Positions 24,302 through 33,891 of a stretch of DNA of 52,014 nt are shown piece after piece. The stretch is from Malaciobacter halophilus (GTDB lineage: Bacteria > Campylobacterota > Campylobacteria > Campylobacterales > Arcobacteraceae). The stretch lies in assembly GCF_002837275.1 (NCBI RefSeq), contig NZ_NXIF01000013.1, positions 1-52,014 of the forward strand. The letters run 5' to 3'. A program made the position numbers and the translations under genes. The notes beneath the pieces are model-generated. The model was not told the origin of the DNA, did not search any database, and was given only the letters and a program-made list of their open reading frames with translations. Numbering within the stretch: position 1 is the first letter of the stretch; each line of letters opens with the position of its first letter.

Positions 24302-25435
24302 TTACTTTATTGCTAAGTTAAGAATTTTTTCTACTTTATCAAGTGTGATATTTTGATTTTCACCAATTGCAGTCATTCCATGTTTTTCTAAAGCACTTGT
24401 AACATTTGTTACAACTTTATCATCAATTCCATAATCACTTAAATTTGTTGAAACTCCAAGTGAATGATATAACTCTTCAATTTTTTCAATACTCTTTTGT
24501 GCATCATTTATATTAAATACATTTTGTCCCATTTGAAGTAGTTTCTCTTTTTTATCTTCAAACATTACTCTTAAAAGTTGTGGTTGAACTACAGCTAAAC
24601 TTCTTCCATGGTCAAGTCCATAAAAAGCAGTTAACTCATGTCCTATCATATGTGTCGCCCAATCTTGTGGTACACCTGAACCAATAAATCCATTTAAAGC
24701 TTGATTTGCTAAAAGCATTAGATTTTCTTGCCAATTATAAGTATCTCTTTTATCCCAATTATTTGCAAGAGATACTAAACCTTTTAAGATAGTTTCGCTA
24801 TATCCATCATGTAATAATGACTCATTTGGATAAGTAATATATTGTTCACATGTATGAACAAAAGCATCAACTAATCCATTTGCAAGTTGTCTATCATTTA
24901 ATGAGCTCATAACACTTGGGTCTAAAACTGCAAACATAGGAAAAACTTTAGGTGAAAAGAAAAATCTTTTTTCATTTGTTGTTTTTCTTGAAACTACTGA
25001 ACCACAGTTAGATTCACTTCCAGTTGCTGGCAAAGTTAAAATCACACCTAAAGGTAAAGCTTCTGTAGGTTGTGCGCTACCATCTAAAAAGTCCCAAGCA
25101 TCACCTTCATATAATGAAGCTGCTGCTAAATATTTACACCCATCAATTACAGAGCCTCCTCCAACAGCTAATATAAAATTGATATTTTTTTCTTTTACTA
25201 TTTTTACTGCTTTATTCATAGTCTCAACTGTAGGATTTGGTTCAACTCCACTAAACTCTAAAACTTCATAATTTTCTAATGCTTTAACAACTTGTTCATA
25301 AACACCATTTTTCTTAATAGAACCACCACCATAAACAAATAGTACCTTTGCATTTTTAGGAATATAAGTAGAAATAGATTCTATTTTCTGTTTTCCAAAC
25401 TCAATTAATGTTGGATTATGATATGTATATGTCAT
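24302..25435 (-). CDS. Iron/zinc-containing alcohol dehydrogenase, YqhD/BDH type
   Basis: A 377-residue group III alcohol dehydrogenase, of the length of YqhD. The NADP-binding region includes YGGGSIKKNG (about 35-44) and VGGGSVIDG (about 91-99), both typical of the YqhD/butanol dehydrogenase branch. Metal ligands are expected at D190 and H194 (LVDAFVHTCE), H266 (MIGHELTA) and H276 (GLDHGRSLA). Such enzymes reduce a broad range of aldehydes, with a proposed role in removing reactive aldehydes. It is a single gene, divergent from the porin pair, with AAGGA before its ATG. Confidence 0.9.
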   Translation of the reverse strand: MTYTYHNPTLIEFGKQKIESISTYIPKNAKVLFVYGGGSIKKNGVYEQVVKALENYEVLEFSGVEPNPTVETMNKAVKIVKEKNINFILAVGGGSVIDGCKYLAAASLYEGDAWDFLDGSAQPTEALPLGVILTLPATGSESNCGSVVSRKTTNEKRFFFSPKVFPMFAVLDPSVMSSLNDRQLANGLVDAFVHTCEQYITYPNESLLHDGYSETILKGLVSLANNWDKRDTYNWQENLMLLANQALNGFIGSGVPQDWATHMIGHELTAFYGLDHGRSLAVVQPQLLRVMFEDKKEKLLQMGQNVFNINDAQKSIEKIEELYHSLGVSTNLSDYGIDDKVVTNVTSALEKHGMTAIGENQNITLDKVEKILNLAIK

Positions 25436-25532
25436 AAATTATCCTTTCTAAAATTTCTAATATTATATAGATAAAAAATGGATTTTCAAATAGTAAATCC
25501 TACAAATTGTATCTATTTTTCTACAAATATAC

Positions 25533-25549
25533 TTATTCGATTTTTTTTC
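25533..25549 (+). promoter_or_regulatory. Motif shared with the molybdoenzyme promoter, upstream of the first porin
   Basis: A 17-base sequence here (TTATTCGATTTTTTTTC on the plus strand) is identical to the sequence at 24115-24131 read on the minus strand. It includes one full TTCGATTTTTT unit followed by a degraded second unit (TTCTA). The orientation relative to the downstream gene is the same in both places. It starts about 105 bases before the porin ATG. It may bring the porin under the same response regulator. Confidence 0.4.
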
Positions 25550-25637
25550 TACAATTTTTTTTTATACTTTCAAAACATAAAAAATAAAACTACTTATAAA
25601 TATTTAGTTTTATTTAAAATTACATAAAGGAAATGAT

Positions 25638-26795
25638 ATGAAATCTATAAAGTTAAGTCTAATTGCTGCTTTAGCAACAACTGTATGTACTAATATTAGT
25701 GCAAATAGTTTACAAGAAGCACTAACAAATGGAAAAGTAAGTGCAGAGTTTGCTGTAACTTATGAAACAAGAAAACAAGATAAAGAGATTTCTAAATATT
25801 ATCAAGATACTGCTTATAGTGTTGGTTCTTTTGCTTTAAAATATGAAACAGAAAAGTGGAATAACCTTAGTTTAACAGCAAAATTTAGAGCTTATAAAAC
25901 TCTATTTGAAGATGATGATAAATCTATAACAAGCACAGGTAAAGGTGATGCTAGTGAAAGATTTTACAAAACTGGAAGTGAAAAAGATATTGATGCAGAA
26001 GAGTTATTTTTAGCATATGATTTGAATAACTTACATATTAAAGCAGGTAGACAATTTATCTCTACTGAATGGATTAATAAAACTCAAGATGCAATAAGTT
26101 TATATTATGATATAAACAATACAAGTATTGAAGCAATTTGGTCAAGTAGACATGGTAGAGTTTATGCAAGAGATTATAGACCTATGACTCATATCAATAA
26201 AGAAAATGGTGGTGTATATAAATTAGGAGTTACACAAAAAATTAGTGATAAACTCTTTGTAAAAGCTTATGGATTAACAGCACCATCATTAAAAGATATT
26301 TATGGTGGAAAAATTAACTATAAAAATAGTATTAATAATATTAAATTTGGAGCAATGGCACACTATGCAGATTTAAATGAAGATGATACTAATTTACAAG
26401 ATAGTAATATTTTAGAATTAAAAACATTTGCTACAATTAATGGATATACAGCAACTCTTGGATATGTACAAATTGATGAAGATGCTGCTTTTAATCACAT
26501 TGCAGGAGAGACTATCATTCCTTTTGAAGAAGGTGATCAGATGTTCTTAAAAGATGCAAAAACTACTTATGCAATGCTAAGTAAATCTTTTGGTAAATTA
26601 AATTTAACAGCTTTATATGGAATCACTGATTATGAAAAAGATTTTGATAAAGACGAATTTAACTTATGGGCAGGATATAAATTTAATAAAAACCTTACAT
26701 TAAATGTAGGATATGCCTTAACAAATGAAGATAATAAAGATGCAAATACTACTGATTTAAATCAACTAAATGCAACTTTAGTTTACTCATTTTAA
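25638..26795 (+). CDS. Outer-membrane porin, Opr family (first of tandem pair)
   Basis: A 385-residue beta-barrel porin. The signal peptide covers about residues 1-22 (ending SAN). The mature protein is a succession of alternating-pattern strands and ends in LVYSF with a terminal Phe. Very similar stretches, such as YYQDTAYSVGSFALKYET and GDASERFY, occur in the next gene, so the two are tandem duplicates. Substrate is unknown. AAAGGA precedes the ATG. The shared 17-base motif upstream suggests co-regulation with the molybdoenzyme operon. A hairpin and a structured RNA-like element follow it. Confidence 0.86.
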   Translation: MKSIKLSLIAALATTVCTNISANSLQEALTNGKVSAEFAVTYETRKQDKEISKYYQDTAYSVGSFALKYETEKWNNLSLTAKFRAYKTLFEDDDKSITSTGKGDASERFYKTGSEKDIDAEELFLAYDLNNLHIKAGRQFISTEWINKTQDAISLYYDINNTSIEAIWSSRHGRVYARDYRPMTHINKENGGVYKLGVTQKISDKLFVKAYGLTAPSLKDIYGGKINYKNSINNIKFGAMAHYADLNEDDTNLQDSNILELKTFATINGYTATLGYVQIDEDAAFNHIAGETIIPFEEGDQMFLKDAKTTYAMLSKSFGKLNLTALYGITDYEKDFDKDEFNLWAGYKFNKNLTLNVGYALTNEDNKDANTTDLNQLNATLVYSF

Positions 26796-26821
26796 TATAT
26801 ACTCCTTCAAAGGAGTATATA
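26796..26821 (+). terminator. Perfect 12-bp stem-loop after porin 1
   Basis: The stem TATATACTCCTT pairs with AAGGAGTATATA around a CA loop and begins at the first base after the stop codon. It has no U tract. A homologous hairpin follows porin 2 at 28258-28282. Confidence 0.6.
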
Positions 26822-26822
26822 A

Positions 26823-26933
26823 AGTATAAAACTGCCTCTAAAAAAATTATATAGTCTTTCTTTGTTTCCCTTACTATAAAGAAGTTTTTAGCGAATTTAA
26901 CTTCAAAGTCTTTTTTGGAGGTAGTTCTATACT
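26823..26933 (+). ncRNA. Candidate structured RNA element, copy 1 (porin-downstream)
   Basis: A 111-base non-coding segment closed by a long stem: 26823-26845 pairs with 26911-26933 over 23 positions with one A-C mismatch and G-U pairs. The inner hairpin 26881-26886/26899-26904 (GAAGTT/AACTTC) displays the loop TTTAGCGAATTT. The CTGCCTC/GAGGTAG core of the stem is identical in copy 2. It pairs fully, with a G-U, only on the plus strand, so the plus strand is probably the functional RNA. It may be a porin 3'-UTR-derived small RNA or a leader of the next porin. I recognise no known RNA family. Confidence 0.5.
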
Positions 26934-26991
26934 CTATCAAAATTTTCTATATATTCCACAAAAAATTTACTTTTTAGACCCACTGATTAAT

Positions 26992-26997
26992 TATAAT
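26992..26997 (+). promoter_or_regulatory. Candidate -10 box for porin 2
   Basis: TATAAT, preceded by AT-rich sequence, lies 69 bases before the porin 2 start codon and downstream of the structured element. It suggests that porin 2 can be transcribed independently of porin 1. Confidence 0.4.
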
Positions 26998-27066
26998 TTG
27001 AAAATAAACTTAATTTTACCAACTACTGTAAAAATAAAGTTTAAATACTTTGGGAAAAGGAAAACA

Positions 27067-28254
27067 ATGAAAAGTATAAAATTAAGCTTAATCGCTTCAT
27101 TAGCTTTAGGAACATGTACATTCGCGAGTGCAGATAGTTTACAAGAAGCTTTATCAAATGGAAAAGTAAGTGGAGAAGTTGCAATTACTTATGAAACAAG
27201 AAATGTTGATGAGAAAGTAGGAGACTATTATCAAGACACTGCTTATAGTGTTGGTTCATTTGCATTAAAGTATGAAACAGGTGTTTGGAATAATCTTAGT
27301 TTAACTACTAAATTTAGAGCATATAAAAATCTATTTGAAGATAATGATAGCCTTGATACTTGGAAAGGTACTGGTGATGCTAGTGAAAGATTTTATGAAA
27401 ATGGTGATGAAAAAGACATTGATGCAGAAGAGTTCTTTGTAAAATACCAATATGAAAATTTCACACTTAAAGCTGGTAGACAATTTATTGTTTCTGATTG
27501 GTTTGCAAAAACACATGATGCAGTTAAACTTGATGCAGTATTTGGTGATACAGCAGTTGAAGCAATTTGGTCTAAAAAAATTGGTAGAGTTTATGCAAGA
27601 GATTATAGACCTATGGAAAATATCAATGAAAGCAAAGGTGCTTATAAATTAGGTATTACTCATAAATTCAATGATAATATTAAAGCAACTGTTTATGATG
27701 TATATTTACCAGATAATCACTACAAATTAGGTGGAAGATTAAATCTTGATTATGATAAATTCTCTATTAGAGCAGACTATGTTCAACAAAAAATGGATGA
27801 TGATTTAAACAAAGATGATACTGACTTTTTTCATTTAAAAGCTAGTACAAAAATCCTTGGAGTTAATGCAGCTATTGGTTATGCAAAAGTTGGAGATGAC
27901 AAAGACCCATTTATTGGATATGGAGCAGCTGGAGAGTCTTTAAGTCCATTTGAAGAAGGTGATGCTTTTTATTATAGAAATGCAGAGACTTACTATGCAA
28001 GTTTAAGCAAATCATTTGGTGATTTAAATGCTACTTTAATTTATGGAATCTTTAACGACTATAAAGTTGATATAAAAGGAAGAGATTCAAATAATGAATA
28101 TGATGCAAATGAAACAACTTTATGGTTAGGATACAAAGTATCTGATAATATCAAAGCAAATGTTGGATACACATACTTTAATACAGATGATGTAAATGGT
28201 TGGATTGGTTCTGATATGAATCAATTAAACGCTACATTAGTATATAGTTTCTAA
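27067..28254 (+). CDS. Outer-membrane porin, Opr family (second of tandem pair)
   Basis: A 395-residue porin paralogous to the gene before it, with the same opening (MKSIKLSLIA), the same internal motifs and the same LVYSF ending. The start at 27067 is preferred over an in-frame codon at 26998: it has AAGGA 5 bases upstream, and a normal signal peptide (ending FASAD) begins there, whereas the extra 23 residues are Lys-rich and would spoil the signal. Differences from porin 1 concentrate in loop-like segments, for example an added DIKGRDSNNEYDANE stretch, which suggests divergence in exposed loops or pore selectivity. Confidence 0.88.
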   Translation: MKSIKLSLIASLALGTCTFASADSLQEALSNGKVSGEVAITYETRNVDEKVGDYYQDTAYSVGSFALKYETGVWNNLSLTTKFRAYKNLFEDNDSLDTWKGTGDASERFYENGDEKDIDAEEFFVKYQYENFTLKAGRQFIVSDWFAKTHDAVKLDAVFGDTAVEAIWSKKIGRVYARDYRPMENINESKGAYKLGITHKFNDNIKATVYDVYLPDNHYKLGGRLNLDYDKFSIRADYVQQKMDDDLNKDDTDFFHLKASTKILGVNAAIGYAKVGDDKDPFIGYGAAGESLSPFEEGDAFYYRNAETYYASLSKSFGDLNATLIYGIFNDYKVDIKGRDSNNEYDANETTLWLGYKVSDNIKANVGYTYFNTDDVNGWIGSDMNQLNATLVYSF

Positions 28255-28257
28255 TTT

Positions 28258-28282
28258 TATACACTCCTTTTTGGGGTGTATA
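28258..28282 (+). terminator. Stem-loop after porin 2
   Basis: A 10-bp stem (TATACACTCC with GGGGTGTATA, one G-T) with a TTTTT loop, starting 3 bases beyond the stop codon. It is homologous in position and sequence to the hairpin after porin 1. Confidence 0.55.
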
Positions 28283-28404
28283 TAGGCCATAAAACTGCCT
28301 CTGGAACATTTTTATTGTCCCTTTTTGTTTCTTAAGTTTTTTATCTTCAGATGTTTATTGCGAATTTTGCATCTTAAGAGTTTCAGAGGTAGTTTTATGG
28401 CCTA
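28283..28404 (+). ncRNA. Candidate structured RNA element, copy 2 (porin-downstream, before feoA)
   Basis: A 122-base segment closed by 28283-28303 paired with 28384-28404: 21 continuous pairs including one G-U, extendable by four more. The inner hairpin AGATGT/GCATCT (28349-28354/28369-28374) holds a loop with TTGCGAATTTT. Compared with copy 1, the outer end of the stem changes from AGTATA/TATACT to GGCCATA/TATGGCC and the inner hairpin from GAAGTT/AACTTC to AGATGT/GCATCT. Both keep pairing, so the base changes are compensatory. The 352-base gap between porin 2 and feoA holds this element, a hairpin and a Fur-like box. Confidence 0.5.
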
Positions 28405-28571
28405 TTCTCTCAATTTATAATAAGTTTTTCTTATAACTTTTATTTCTAAAACTTTCACAACTTAGTGACATTTTAATAACAAAACACCTTTTTATGGTAT
28501 TTCTTTCAAAAAGAATTTTATTTTTTTAAGTATTTATTATAATATTTTAAGTTTTAATATCTTAATATTTC

Positions 28572-28590
28572 AATAACGATTATCATAATT
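28572..28590. promoter_or_regulatory. Fur-like box upstream of feoA
   Basis: The sequence AATAACGATTATCATAATT resembles the Fur consensus, with a GATTATCAT core. It ends 15 bases before the feoA start. Iron repression of feo genes through Fur is the usual arrangement. Confidence 0.55.
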
Positions 28591-28605
28591 ACTAAAGGTT
28601 ATATT

Positions 28606-28842
28606 TTGAATAATAAAATGATTATGCTTGATACTTTATCAAAAGGTCAAAAAGCAAAAATAAAAAAAATAAGAACTGATGGAAAACTTTTAAGAAGACT
28701 ATTAGACATGGGTTTTGTTATGAATAGCGAAATTGAGGTTATTAGAGAAGCACCATTATTTGATCCAATGGAATTAAAAATACATAACTACTATATTAGT
28801 ATTAGAAAAAGTGAAGCTTCTTTAATTGAGGTAAAAATATGA
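28606..28842 (+). CDS. feoA: Ferrous iron transport protein A
   Basis: A 78-residue SH3-like protein that supports FeoB. The pattern RLLDMGFVMNSEIEVIREAP with a C-terminal YYISIRKSEASLIEV strand is typical of FeoA. The start is TTG at 28606-28608, chosen because AAAGG at 28594-28598 lies 7 bases before it. The next ATG, at 28618, would be 19 bases from that site. Its last 4 bases overlap the feoB start (ATGA), so translation is coupled. Confidence 0.9.
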   Translation: MNNKMIMLDTLSKGQKAKIKKIRTDGKLLRRLLDMGFVMNSEIEVIREAPLFDPMELKIHNYYISIRKSEASLIEVKI

Positions 28843-31325
28843 AACAAATAAAAGTAGGTCTTGCAGGACAACCAAATTGTGGTAAATCTACAATTTTTAA
28901 TCTTGTAAGTGGAATTGAACAACATATTGCAAACTATCCAGGAGTAACAGTAGATAAAAAAACTGGATTTTTCAAATATGAAGATTATAAAGTTGAAATG
29001 GTAGATTTACCAGGTACATACTCTTTTAGCTCATTTTCACAAGAAGAAAAAGTTGCCAAGAAATTTATTATTGAAGAGAGTAATCCTAATTATAAGGGTA
29101 AAAATATAGATATTATTGTAAATGTTATTGACTCTTCGAATTTAAAAAGAAATCTTTATTTAACTTTTCAACTTTTAGAGATTGGTATTCCTGTTGTAGT
29201 TGTATTAAATATGATTGATATAGCTAAAAACAGAGGTTTAGAAATAGATTCAAAAAAAATCTCTAAAATGCTTTCTTGCCCAGTTGTTGAAACAAGTGGT
29301 TCAAAAGGAATTGGTGGAAAAGAGCTTATGCAAGCAATTGCTGATACTTTTGAGAAAAAAACAAAATATGAAGAGTTTAAAATAAACTATGAAGAACTAG
29401 AAGTTCATATTCAAAAGATTGAAAAACTTTTAGATAATAGTAAAAGTCATTTGAGCAAAAGATGGCTTGCAATTAAACTTCTTGAAGAAGACCCTACTAT
29501 TTTAGAACATGTTAGTTCAAATATAAATAAAGAAGAAATAGATAAAGAAATAGAGAGTTTTCATACACTTCATGATAAAGATACCATCTCTTTTCTAGCA
29601 ACATTTAGATACGACTCTGCAGATGTAGTTTATCATGAGTGCGTAAAAAATCATAATAAAAATAAAGAAACCTTAACTGATAAAATTGATAAAATTGTTT
29701 TAAATAGAGTATTTGCAATACCAATTTTATTATTTATTATATTTTTAGTTTATGAAATATCTATTGTTTATGGATATAAACTAACAGATTATACTTGGCC
29801 TATATTAGCCTCTATGAAAAACTTTATTATTGATATATTACCAAAAGCTGATTTTACACAAGTGCCTATGATTACGGACTTTTTTATATGGATGACTAAT
29901 AGTTCAATTGCACTATTAAATTATATACCCATATTTTTTATTTTATTTGCATTAATTGCAATTATGGAAGATGCAGGATATATGCCAAGAATGGCTTTTA
30001 TTCTTGATAAAATCTTTAAAAAATTTGGTTTACATGGACAATCTACACTTCCATTGGTATTAGGTGGAGCAATGGTAGGAGGTTGTGCAGTTCCTGGAGT
30101 TATGTCAACAAAAGGAATTAGTGATGAAAGAGCAAGAATGGCTACAATATTGACAGTTCCTTATATGAATTGTCTTGCAAAAGTACCTTTTTATACTCTT
30201 TTATTAGGAGCCTTTTTCAAACCAGAAATGGCATTGATGATGTTTTTTATCTCAACAATAACTATTTTTATTGCTTTATTAATTGCAAAATTTTTAACAA
30301 CAACAGTTTTAAAAACAAGACAAACAGCTCCTTTTGTAATGGAGTTACCTCCTTATCATGTTCCTACTTTAAAAGGTGTATTTATAAGATCATTTCAAAA
30401 AGTATGGATATATATTAAAAAAGTTGTGACAATTGTATTAGCAGTAGCAGTTATACTATTTGCAATGTTGGAGTTTCCAGGATTAAATGAGGAAGCAACT
30501 TTAAAATATGAAAAGCAATCTCTTTCTTATTTAAATAAATTTGATAAACAAATTAAAAACAATAAATATTATGCATTAGTAGATACAAAAAAAGAGGTTT
30601 CAGATTTACTAAACTATTATGATAGTTATAGAGCAAAAAGAATGGCAGCTACTTCAAAAGAGGATTCAAAACAACTTGATAGAAAGTTTAAACTAATAAA
30701 TGCAGACTATTATACTTTTTTAAAACCTAAAAGGGATAAAGAAGCAAAAAAAATAAATAGAGCTATTAGAAAACTTTCAAGGGATAGAAAAAAAGTTTTA
30801 AGAGAAATGAAAAACGAAAAAATTGAAAACTCAATTTTAGGTATGACAGGAAGAGCATTAGAACCAATTACTCAATATGCAGGGTTTGATTGGAAGATAA
30901 ATGTAGCATTTTTAAGCTCTTTTGCAGCAAGAGAGAGTGCAGTTGCAACACTTGGAAGTATCTATGAAAACAATAAAGCAGATTCAAAAAGAGCAGAAGA
31001 AGCAATGGCTGAGAATAGTGGTTATACTCCACTACATGCAGCGGCAATTATAATTTTTATGATTTTAACTCCACCTTGTATTGCAACTATGATTGTAGTA
31101 AAAATGCAAACAAATAGTTATAAGTGGATGGTATTTGCAATATTCTTCCCTGTATTTTTAGGAATTGCAATGTCATCATTAACTTTTACAGTTGGAAATA
31201 TTTTCTCTTTAAGTGGAGTAGAAGCCATGGCAACATTTTATTTTACAATAGTTTTTATTACTCTTATTTTGGCTTTTTATCCAAGTAAGAGTATAAACTG
31301 GAAAGGAGGACTAAATAGAGTCTAA
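28839..31325 (+). CDS. feoB: Ferrous iron transporter B
   Basis: An 828-residue inner-membrane Fe(II) transporter. The N-terminal GTPase domain has G1 (GQPNCGKST, about residues 9-17), G3 (DLPGTYS) and G4 (NMID). The membrane domain has the Cys-containing motifs GGAMVGGCAVPGVM and VPYMNCLAKVPFY of FeoB. Between helices, at about residues 550-665, there is a roughly 110-residue charged, Lys-rich insert before the second GATE segment. This makes the protein longer than E. coli FeoB (773 residues) and much longer than the Campylobacter and Helicobacter proteins. It is the second gene of a Fur-box-preceded operon. Confidence 0.95.
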   Translation: MKQIKVGLAGQPNCGKSTIFNLVSGIEQHIANYPGVTVDKKTGFFKYEDYKVEMVDLPGTYSFSSFSQEEKVAKKFIIEESNPNYKGKNIDIIVNVIDSSNLKRNLYLTFQLLEIGIPVVVVLNMIDIAKNRGLEIDSKKISKMLSCPVVETSGSKGIGGKELMQAIADTFEKKTKYEEFKINYEELEVHIQKIEKLLDNSKSHLSKRWLAIKLLEEDPTILEHVSSNINKEEIDKEIESFHTLHDKDTISFLATFRYDSADVVYHECVKNHNKNKETLTDKIDKIVLNRVFAIPILLFIIFLVYEISIVYGYKLTDYTWPILASMKNFIIDILPKADFTQVPMITDFFIWMTNSSIALLNYIPIFFILFALIAIMEDAGYMPRMAFILDKIFKKFGLHGQSTLPLVLGGAMVGGCAVPGVMSTKGISDERARMATILTVPYMNCLAKVPFYTLLLGAFFKPEMALMMFFISTITIFIALLIAKFLTTTVLKTRQTAPFVMELPPYHVPTLKGVFIRSFQKVWIYIKKVVTIVLAVAVILFAMLEFPGLNEEATLKYEKQSLSYLNKFDKQIKNNKYYALVDTKKEVSDLLNYYDSYRAKRMAATSKEDSKQLDRKFKLINADYYTFLKPKRDKEAKKINRAIRKLSRDRKKVLREMKNEKIENSILGMTGRALEPITQYAGFDWKINVAFLSSFAARESAVATLGSIYENNKADSKRAEEAMAENSGYTPLHAAAIIIFMILTPPCIATMIVVKMQTNSYKWMVFAIFFPVFLGIAMSSLTFTVGNIFSLSGVEAMATFYFTIVFITLILAFYPSKSINWKGGLNRV

Positions 31326-33609: not shown

Positions 33610-33684
33610 TGGCTCCGGATACTGGATTCGAACCAGTGGCCAAGTGATTAACAGTCACCTACTCTACCGCTGAGCTAATCCGGA
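33610..33684 (-). tRNA. tRNA-Asn (GTT), third in transcription order
   Basis: A 75-base gene including an encoded CCA end. It folds into a full cloverleaf: acceptor TCCGGAT with ATCCGGA, anticodon loop CTGTTAA giving anticodon GTT, and TTCGAAT in the T loop. The sequence is identical to the two neighbours. Confidence 0.97.
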
Positions 33685-33710
33685 ACAAATATTAAGTTTA
33701 ATTAGATAAG

Positions 33711-33785
33711 TGGCTCCGGATACTGGATTCGAACCAGTGGCCAAGTGATTAACAGTCACCTACTCTACCGCTGAGCTAATCCGGA
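33711..33785 (-). tRNA. tRNA-Asn (GTT), second in transcription order
   Basis: Identical over all 75 bases to the copies on either side. It is separated from them by 26 and 31 bases of unrelated AT-rich sequence, so the three are probably cut from one precursor. Confidence 0.97.
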
Positions 33786-33816
33786 ATATATCTAATAAAA
33801 GTTTTCATTAAAGTTA

Positions 33817-33891
33817 TGGCTCCGGATACTGGATTCGAACCAGTGGCCAAGTGATTAACAGTCACCTACTCTACCGCTGAGCTAATCCGGA
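33817..33891 (-). tRNA. tRNA-Asn (GTT), first in transcription order
   Basis: The third identical 75-base copy with encoded CCA and anticodon GTT. It is the promoter-proximal member of the tandem. The upstream region toward the radical SAM gene is short and AT-rich. Confidence 0.97.

Follow-up and report, generated by a model that had tools for sequence, protein, structure and literature searches.

Structured elements behind the tandem porin genes

The window, a stretch of 52,014 nucleotides from Malaciobacter halophilus, carries two Opr-family porin genes in tandem, each followed on its own strand by a segment with a long closing stem, and the locus raises the question of what these segments do. 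We consider it likely that they are a regulatory RNA, situated in the 3′ untranslated region (UTR) of the Opr-porin mRNA, which represses translation of the major outer membrane protein (MOMP), itself a porin, and thereby acts as a porin switch. In what follows, the genome of the window is G000 (copies G000a and G000b), its sister genome is G001, and G003 is another species of the same genus. The features of the locus are as follows.

25638..26795, + strand: Opr-family porin gene a, 385 aa, 5′ of element a; Pfam Porin_4; NCBIfam opr_proin_2, E 5e-172
26796..26821, + strand: short hairpin a, TATATACTCCTT/AAGGAGTATATA, directly 3′ of stop codon a, with no T-run after it
26823..26933, + strand: element a, structured RNA with a 22-pair closing stem; covariance model (14 copies) E 1.6e-14
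26881..26904, + strand: apical hairpin of element a, GAAGTT-loop-AACTTC; TTTTT-A-GCGAATTT at 26885-26898 is antisense to MOMP codons 3 to 7, with one bulged A
27067..28254, + strand: Opr-family porin gene b, 395 aa counted from ATG, 5′ of element b; Pfam Campylo_MOMP, E 7.5e-13; NCBIfam opr_proin_2, E 1.7e-162
28258..28282, + strand: short hairpin b, TATACACTCC/GGGGTGTATA, directly 3′ of stop codon b, read from the sequence
28283..28404, + strand: element b, structured RNA with a 25-pair closing stem; covariance model (14 copies) E 4.4e-17
28349..28374, + strand: apical hairpin of element b, AGATGT-loop-GCATCT; TTGCGAATTTT at 28358-28368 is antisense to MOMP codons 2 to 6

A sequence-only reading of this DNA had described one structured segment after each porin, and both were recovered where it had placed them, together with the shared arms ATAAAACTGCCTCT and GAGGTAGTT and the shared word GCGAATTT, which sits in the loop of the apical hairpin in both elements. 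The closing stem, put at 21-23 pairs by that reading, has 25 pairs in element b and 22, around one A-C mismatch, in element a. Folded as plus-strand RNA, copy a reaches -29.0 kcal/mol (z -4.6) and copy b -47.1 kcal/mol (z -8.3), and in neither case was any of 200 shuffles as stable. Rfam returned no credible match for either element at the gathering cut-off or at a relaxed threshold, and the sequence-only reading had likewise recognised no known RNA family.

At both window porins a short hairpin lacking a T-run lies between the stop codon and the element. No intrinsic terminator, defined as a stem-loop followed by a T-run, was found between window positions 25400 and 28900, and no clear promoter of their own was seen at the two elements. 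ACTTTTTAGACCCA, a possible regulator site conserved in G001 and G003, lies upstream of the TATAAT box that precedes porin b (window 26970-27010). Elsewhere in the window (33613-33891, minus strand), three tRNA genes with identical Rfam scores stand in tandem.

Conservation and genomic linkage of the element

Covariance models, built from four copies and later from 14, were searched in 104 genomes of the family and gave 13 places with E < 1e-8; with one further copy spotted by eye (G070), the element is represented by 14 copies from eight species in four genera of Arcobacteraceae. All 14 stand immediately behind an Opr-family porin gene, past its stop codon and on its strand, and the covariance search found the element nowhere else; whether homologues always follow Opr porins was a check suggested by the sequence-only reading. 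The tandem porins recur in G001 and G003, where each is likewise followed by an element, and further copies occur in G064, G071 and G072 (genus g10, Halarcobacter), in G040 (Arcobacter sp. EP1), in G091 and in G070. Two elements stand in a row behind one porin in both G064 and G071, and an assembly gap occupies the expected spot in G095, where the 3′ arm is still visible. The earlier idea of a structured RNA tied to porin genes held at every locus.

An exact-arm pattern, which proved too strict, matched in only two of the 104 family genomes. Profile searches of contigs with a single porin as query returned no loci, and with a porin alignment they returned 10. The covariance model detected no other credible element in 397 genomes of the phylum; weak matches outside the family (L042-L044, L104, L118-L120) fell in or beside unrelated genes and were rejected.

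Covariation and strand

Compensatory change, proposed from two copies by the sequence-only reading, extends across all 14. In the 20-pair core of the stem, 94.2% of cells are paired; shuffles give 77.5%, and sliding the partners never gives more than 48.7%. Double-changed cells number 48 against the 13.4 expected from shuffles, a value that none of 500 shuffles reached, although these controls only partly remove the relatedness of the copies; 14 of the 20 pairs show changes on both sides. Exchanges such as C-G to U-A, G-U to G-C to A-U, and the use of UA, AU, GC and CG at one and the same pair in different genera are not easily accounted for except by selection on structure. The stem contains 25 G-U cells and 6 A-C cells, which indicates that the plus strand is the RNA, as a single conserved G-U pair had earlier suggested.

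Loop words shared between unrelated stems

The loop words GCGAAUUU, UUUGUUCUCC and UCUCCUAAAAUUUCG are antisense to the Shine-Dalgarno sequence, start codon and first codons of MOMP. CTCC is found in 13/13 loops outside the genus of the window (2.6 expected from dinucleotide shuffles) and GCGAATT in 10/19 loops (0.07 expected on the same basis), and within the genus CUCC is mostly lost, being kept in 1/6 loops. Behind the same porin family and in the same place, Aliarcobacter and A. caeni (L068, L069) as well as Sulfurimonas OB8 (L070) carry elements whose stem sequence is unrelated and whose loop contains CUCC. Since these words are kept around unrelated stems, the loop appears to be the part that matters. 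It had been suggested that the CTGCCTC arm could pair with GAGG-type ribosome sites; the arm itself is buried in the closing stem, but the anti-Shine-Dalgarno idea survives in the CUCC of all 13 loops outside the genus. The loop, with its words antisense to the MOMP translation start, is a better candidate for the active part than the arm.

Two broader uses of these words were considered and rejected. A generic anti-Shine-Dalgarno action is not supported, as in most genomes the loops pair with typical start regions no better than shuffled loops do, and a GCGAATT regulon was discarded because most other copies of the word in G001 fall in genes or unrelated repeats. REP-like intergenic palindromes GGAAGCGCGAATTYATTCGTGCC, unrelated to the element, also occur in G001:C1 at ~911-924 kb, 331 kb and 335.6 kb.

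Most loops are antisense to the MOMP translation start

Every occurrence of GCGAATTT was checked in the 2.06 Mb read of G001, and one site complements a start region, TTTAGGAGAACAAATGAAAAAATTCGCAAAAATG, which belongs to a 399-aa porin beginning MKKFAKMSLVAAVAVAG and matching Pfam Campylo_MOMP (E 5.8e-28). The leader and start of this gene, AAATTTCGAAATTTTAGGAGAACAAATGAAAAAATTCGCAAAAATG, are identical in six of six species of the genus, including that of the window (L025). Its reverse complement, GCGAATTTTTTCATTTGTTCTCCTAAAATTTCG, includes the loop words of several genera: GCGAATTT(T) in the genus of the window, TTTTCATTTGTTCTCCTAA in G072, GCGAATT..ATTTGTTCTCC in G040, ATTTTTGCGAATTTT..TTCTCCT in G064 and G071, and TCTCCTAAAATTTC(G) in A. 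caeni and Aliarcobacter. The position matched shifts accordingly, from codons 2-7 in the genus of the window, to the Shine-Dalgarno sequence and start codon in G072, to the leader and Shine-Dalgarno sequence in Aliarcobacter. A MOMP-like leader from the genus to which A. caeni and Aliarcobacter belong (G010, L033) has the same site. From their loops, the MOMP site of G072 itself is predicted to read TTAGGAGAACAAATGAAAA, and that of G064 and G071 AAAATTCGCAAAAAT plus AGGAGAA.

In the window the predicted pairing with MOMP is modest and involves the apical loop in both copies: it extends over 11 bp for copy b and, interrupted by a bulge, over 13 bp for copy a. The antisense segment also falls in the predicted apical loop in G003b and G072, as it does in G000a and G000b, and in an open loop in A. 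caeni.

MOMP was then ranked among 1847 start regions in the 2.06 Mb of G001; these were called by a simple script in place of a gene finder, so that all ranks are approximate, and the G001 MOMP start served as proxy for G040, G064, G071 and G072. By longest uninterrupted complementarity, MOMP ranked 1 of 1847 for seven loops, those of G072 (19 nt), A. caeni (16 nt), Aliarcobacter (14 nt) and both elements of G064 and G071 (14-15 nt); it ranked 2 for G003b and G040 and 7 for G000b and G001b. By duplex energy of the exposed segments, it ranked 1-2 for G000b, G003b, G040, G064-1, G064-2, G072, A. caeni and Aliarcobacter (-12.7 to -25 kcal/mol). Within the window, this measure placed MOMP at 2 of 1847 for copy b (-12.7 kcal/mol) and at 11 of 1847 for copy a (-11.9 kcal/mol); for G003a, where a C to T change gives a G-U pair, the rank was 21.

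Shuffled loops put MOMP at rank 1-2 in 1/105 trials, and reversed or minus-strand loops scored low against it. The uninterrupted match of copy a, taken alone, was not better than that of shuffled loops (78/500), and no fit to the MOMP start, as it reads in G001, was seen for the loops of G070 (rank 101), G091 (rank about 450) and Sulfurimonas. When whole loops were scored by unrestricted duplex energy, long weak pairings dominated and MOMP was not near the top, as for G001a and G001b; gapped local alignment with cheap gaps was noisy too, and the uninterrupted match and the loop-restricted energy were therefore chosen. The target hypothesis arose from the GCGAATTT search and, simultaneously, from the G072 word. 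The loops of A. caeni and of Aliarcobacter and the leaders described below were tested afterwards, and the first two, which have no stem sequence in common with the window element, are out-of-sample.

One other start region in G001, TTAGGAGAAATTACAATGACAAAATTCGCAAAAATAGC (G001:C1:251370-251694, minus strand), also pairs with GCGAAUUUU loops. It belongs to a 107-aa exported-looking protein with no Pfam match, and may be a second target.

Leaders of another porin carry the same words

Loop words in the same sense, such as GCGAATTTTATTCTCCTAAAA and GCGCGAATTTTATTCTCCTAAAA in G005, also occur in the 5′ leader of one more porin (NCBIfam opr_porin_1). Across these leaders (L022 in G000, L023, L121-L128), the conserved words GCGCGAATT..TTCTCCTAAAA or TTCTTCTAA are antisense to the MOMP start, which they placed at rank 1 in G004 and G005, 3 in G091, 5 in G000, 7 in G001 and 10 in G002. 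Leader words are present and the 3′ element absent in G002, G004 and G005. These leaders suggest that antisense to MOMP is not confined to a single porin mRNA.

Proposed mechanism

Antisense RNAs that pair from the Shine-Dalgarno sequence to about codon 7 block ribosome entry. Expression of the Opr porin would produce the element RNA within the 3′ UTR of the porin mRNA, where the long covarying stem would close a loop that exposes the stretch antisense to the MOMP translation start. The RNA could act within the intact mRNA or as a free molecule, perhaps cut by RNase III through the 20-26 bp stem. By pairing within this region of the MOMP mRNA, from the Shine-Dalgarno sequence up to roughly codon 7, it would keep ribosomes out, and one channel would be made instead of another. 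Release by RNase III is plausible because Campylobacter jejuni, a well-studied relative within Campylobacterota without RNase E and Hfq, uses RNase III for a small RNA (PMC8687705).

A wider version, which we put forward tentatively and would not yet bet on, is a network of porin mRNAs in Campylobacterota, in which Opr 3′ UTRs and the opr_porin_1 5′ leader are each antisense to the MOMP start. The major porin would then be repressed, without Hfq, by the mRNA of every alternative porin, and the antisense would have been re-made independently around non-homologous stems across genera.

Alternative explanations

The element could merely serve the 3′ end of an abundant porin mRNA, by terminating transcription or by stopping 3′ exonucleases, and its loop sequence would then have no specific meaning. 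Its place at the 3′ end of porin genes, behind another hairpin, would suit such a role, as would the T-runs that follow some copies outside the window (e.g., G064-1, G071-1, G070). We nevertheless judge this unlikely: the window region 25400-28900 has no terminator-like site, and loop words that are conserved or re-made far above chance match one start region in 1847. Short hairpins similar to those of the window occur 3′ of Opr porins in other genomes even where the element is absent, and the porins of G020, G032, G036, G060, G061 and G067 have this hairpin only.

It is rather improbable that the element is a decoy, its loop words titrating a third factor, protein or small RNA, with no direct pairing to MOMP. 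Such a factor would account for the same-sense words in the opr_porin_1 leaders, but these leaders are themselves antisense to the MOMP start, and direct pairing explains them without a third partner. Moreover, the loop words differ according to the site within the MOMP start that they match, as antisense predicts, unlike the single fixed site of one protein.

Feedback from the 3′ UTR onto the Shine-Dalgarno region of the element's own porin mRNA might hold for those copies whose loops have no match at the MOMP start, and the own start does rank high in G070 (1/33), G091 (2/40) and G001b (3/45). Ranks are low in G064 (41-45/48), G000a (18/41) and G001a (25/45), where the matches amount to generic Shine-Dalgarno complementarity, and we consider this explanation very unlikely. 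A MITE or REP-like DNA repeat, which the inverted-repeat shape and the two copies in one genome might recall and which the sequence-only reading had kept as its alternative, can practically be dismissed, as the genome holds just these two copies, both behind porins and accounted for by duplication of a porin plus its tail, with no unlinked copies, while all copies elsewhere occupy the same place behind the same family and the stems covary with a G-U bias to one strand.

Comparison with known RNA regulators

Repression of MOMP by a porin-borne RNA would place the element beside several known systems. Porin exchange by small RNA is best known from Hfq-bearing gammaproteobacteria; MicF and MicC stand beside their porin gene in the opposite orientation, have their own promoters and are linked to Hfq. 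In E. coli, these antisense RNAs to OmpF and OmpC lie beside one porin gene (ompC-micF, ompN-micC) and pair with the 5′ region of another porin mRNA (PMC5745476). The element resembles them as a porin-adjacent RNA with pairing predicted at the translation start of another porin; in contrast, it resides in the 3′ UTR of its porin, on the same strand, and in a different lineage. MalH derives from the malEFG 3′ end and is a repressor of ompC and ompA; NarS derives from the narK 3′ UTR and represses nirC (PMC9438474). These are likewise 3′-end RNAs of transporter mRNAs acting on another outer-membrane channel or transporter, as repression by the element is predicted to be; they are made by RNase E, and the parental gene of MalH is no porin, whereas the long closing stem of the element is an obvious RNase III substrate and its parent is itself a porin.

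MicX, which derives from a parent other than a porin, is transcribed from its own promoter and then processed by RNase E. It consists largely of the vca0943 3′ UTR of Vibrio cholerae and represses an outer membrane protein mRNA near the start codon (PMC1976385), the kind of aim that is predicted for the element. RNase III frees the small RNA CJnc190/CJnc180 in C. jejuni, which has no Hfq, ProQ or RNase E (PMC8687705), and RsaC from the mntABC mRNA in Staphylococcus aureus (PMC9438474). The sequences and targets of these two RNAs (ptmG; sodA) are unrelated to those of the element. In a screen for structured RNAs that covered Arcobacter sp. L, Stav et al. 2019 gave no names to most rare motifs (PMC6429828); an earlier sighting of a related motif among them is possible.

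The analysis puts forward a candidate regulator and names its predicted target together with the exact positions of pairing, and it suggests that mRNAs of competing membrane proteins can have antisense to one another built into them. This bacterial group has in MOMP-type porins a main channel, so that control of MOMP bears on nutrient and drug uptake; we know of no RNA regulator of MOMP.

Promoter-like boxes near some elements

A TATAAT or TATACT box precedes the second element in G064 and G071 (L055, L057), which may therefore be transcribed on its own. About 100-200 nt past the element in G040 and G072 (L050, L054), another stem-loop (ATAGAAGTCATC..GATGACTTTTAT) has UCUCC in its loop and a TATACT box before it, and is possibly an independent small RNA gene.
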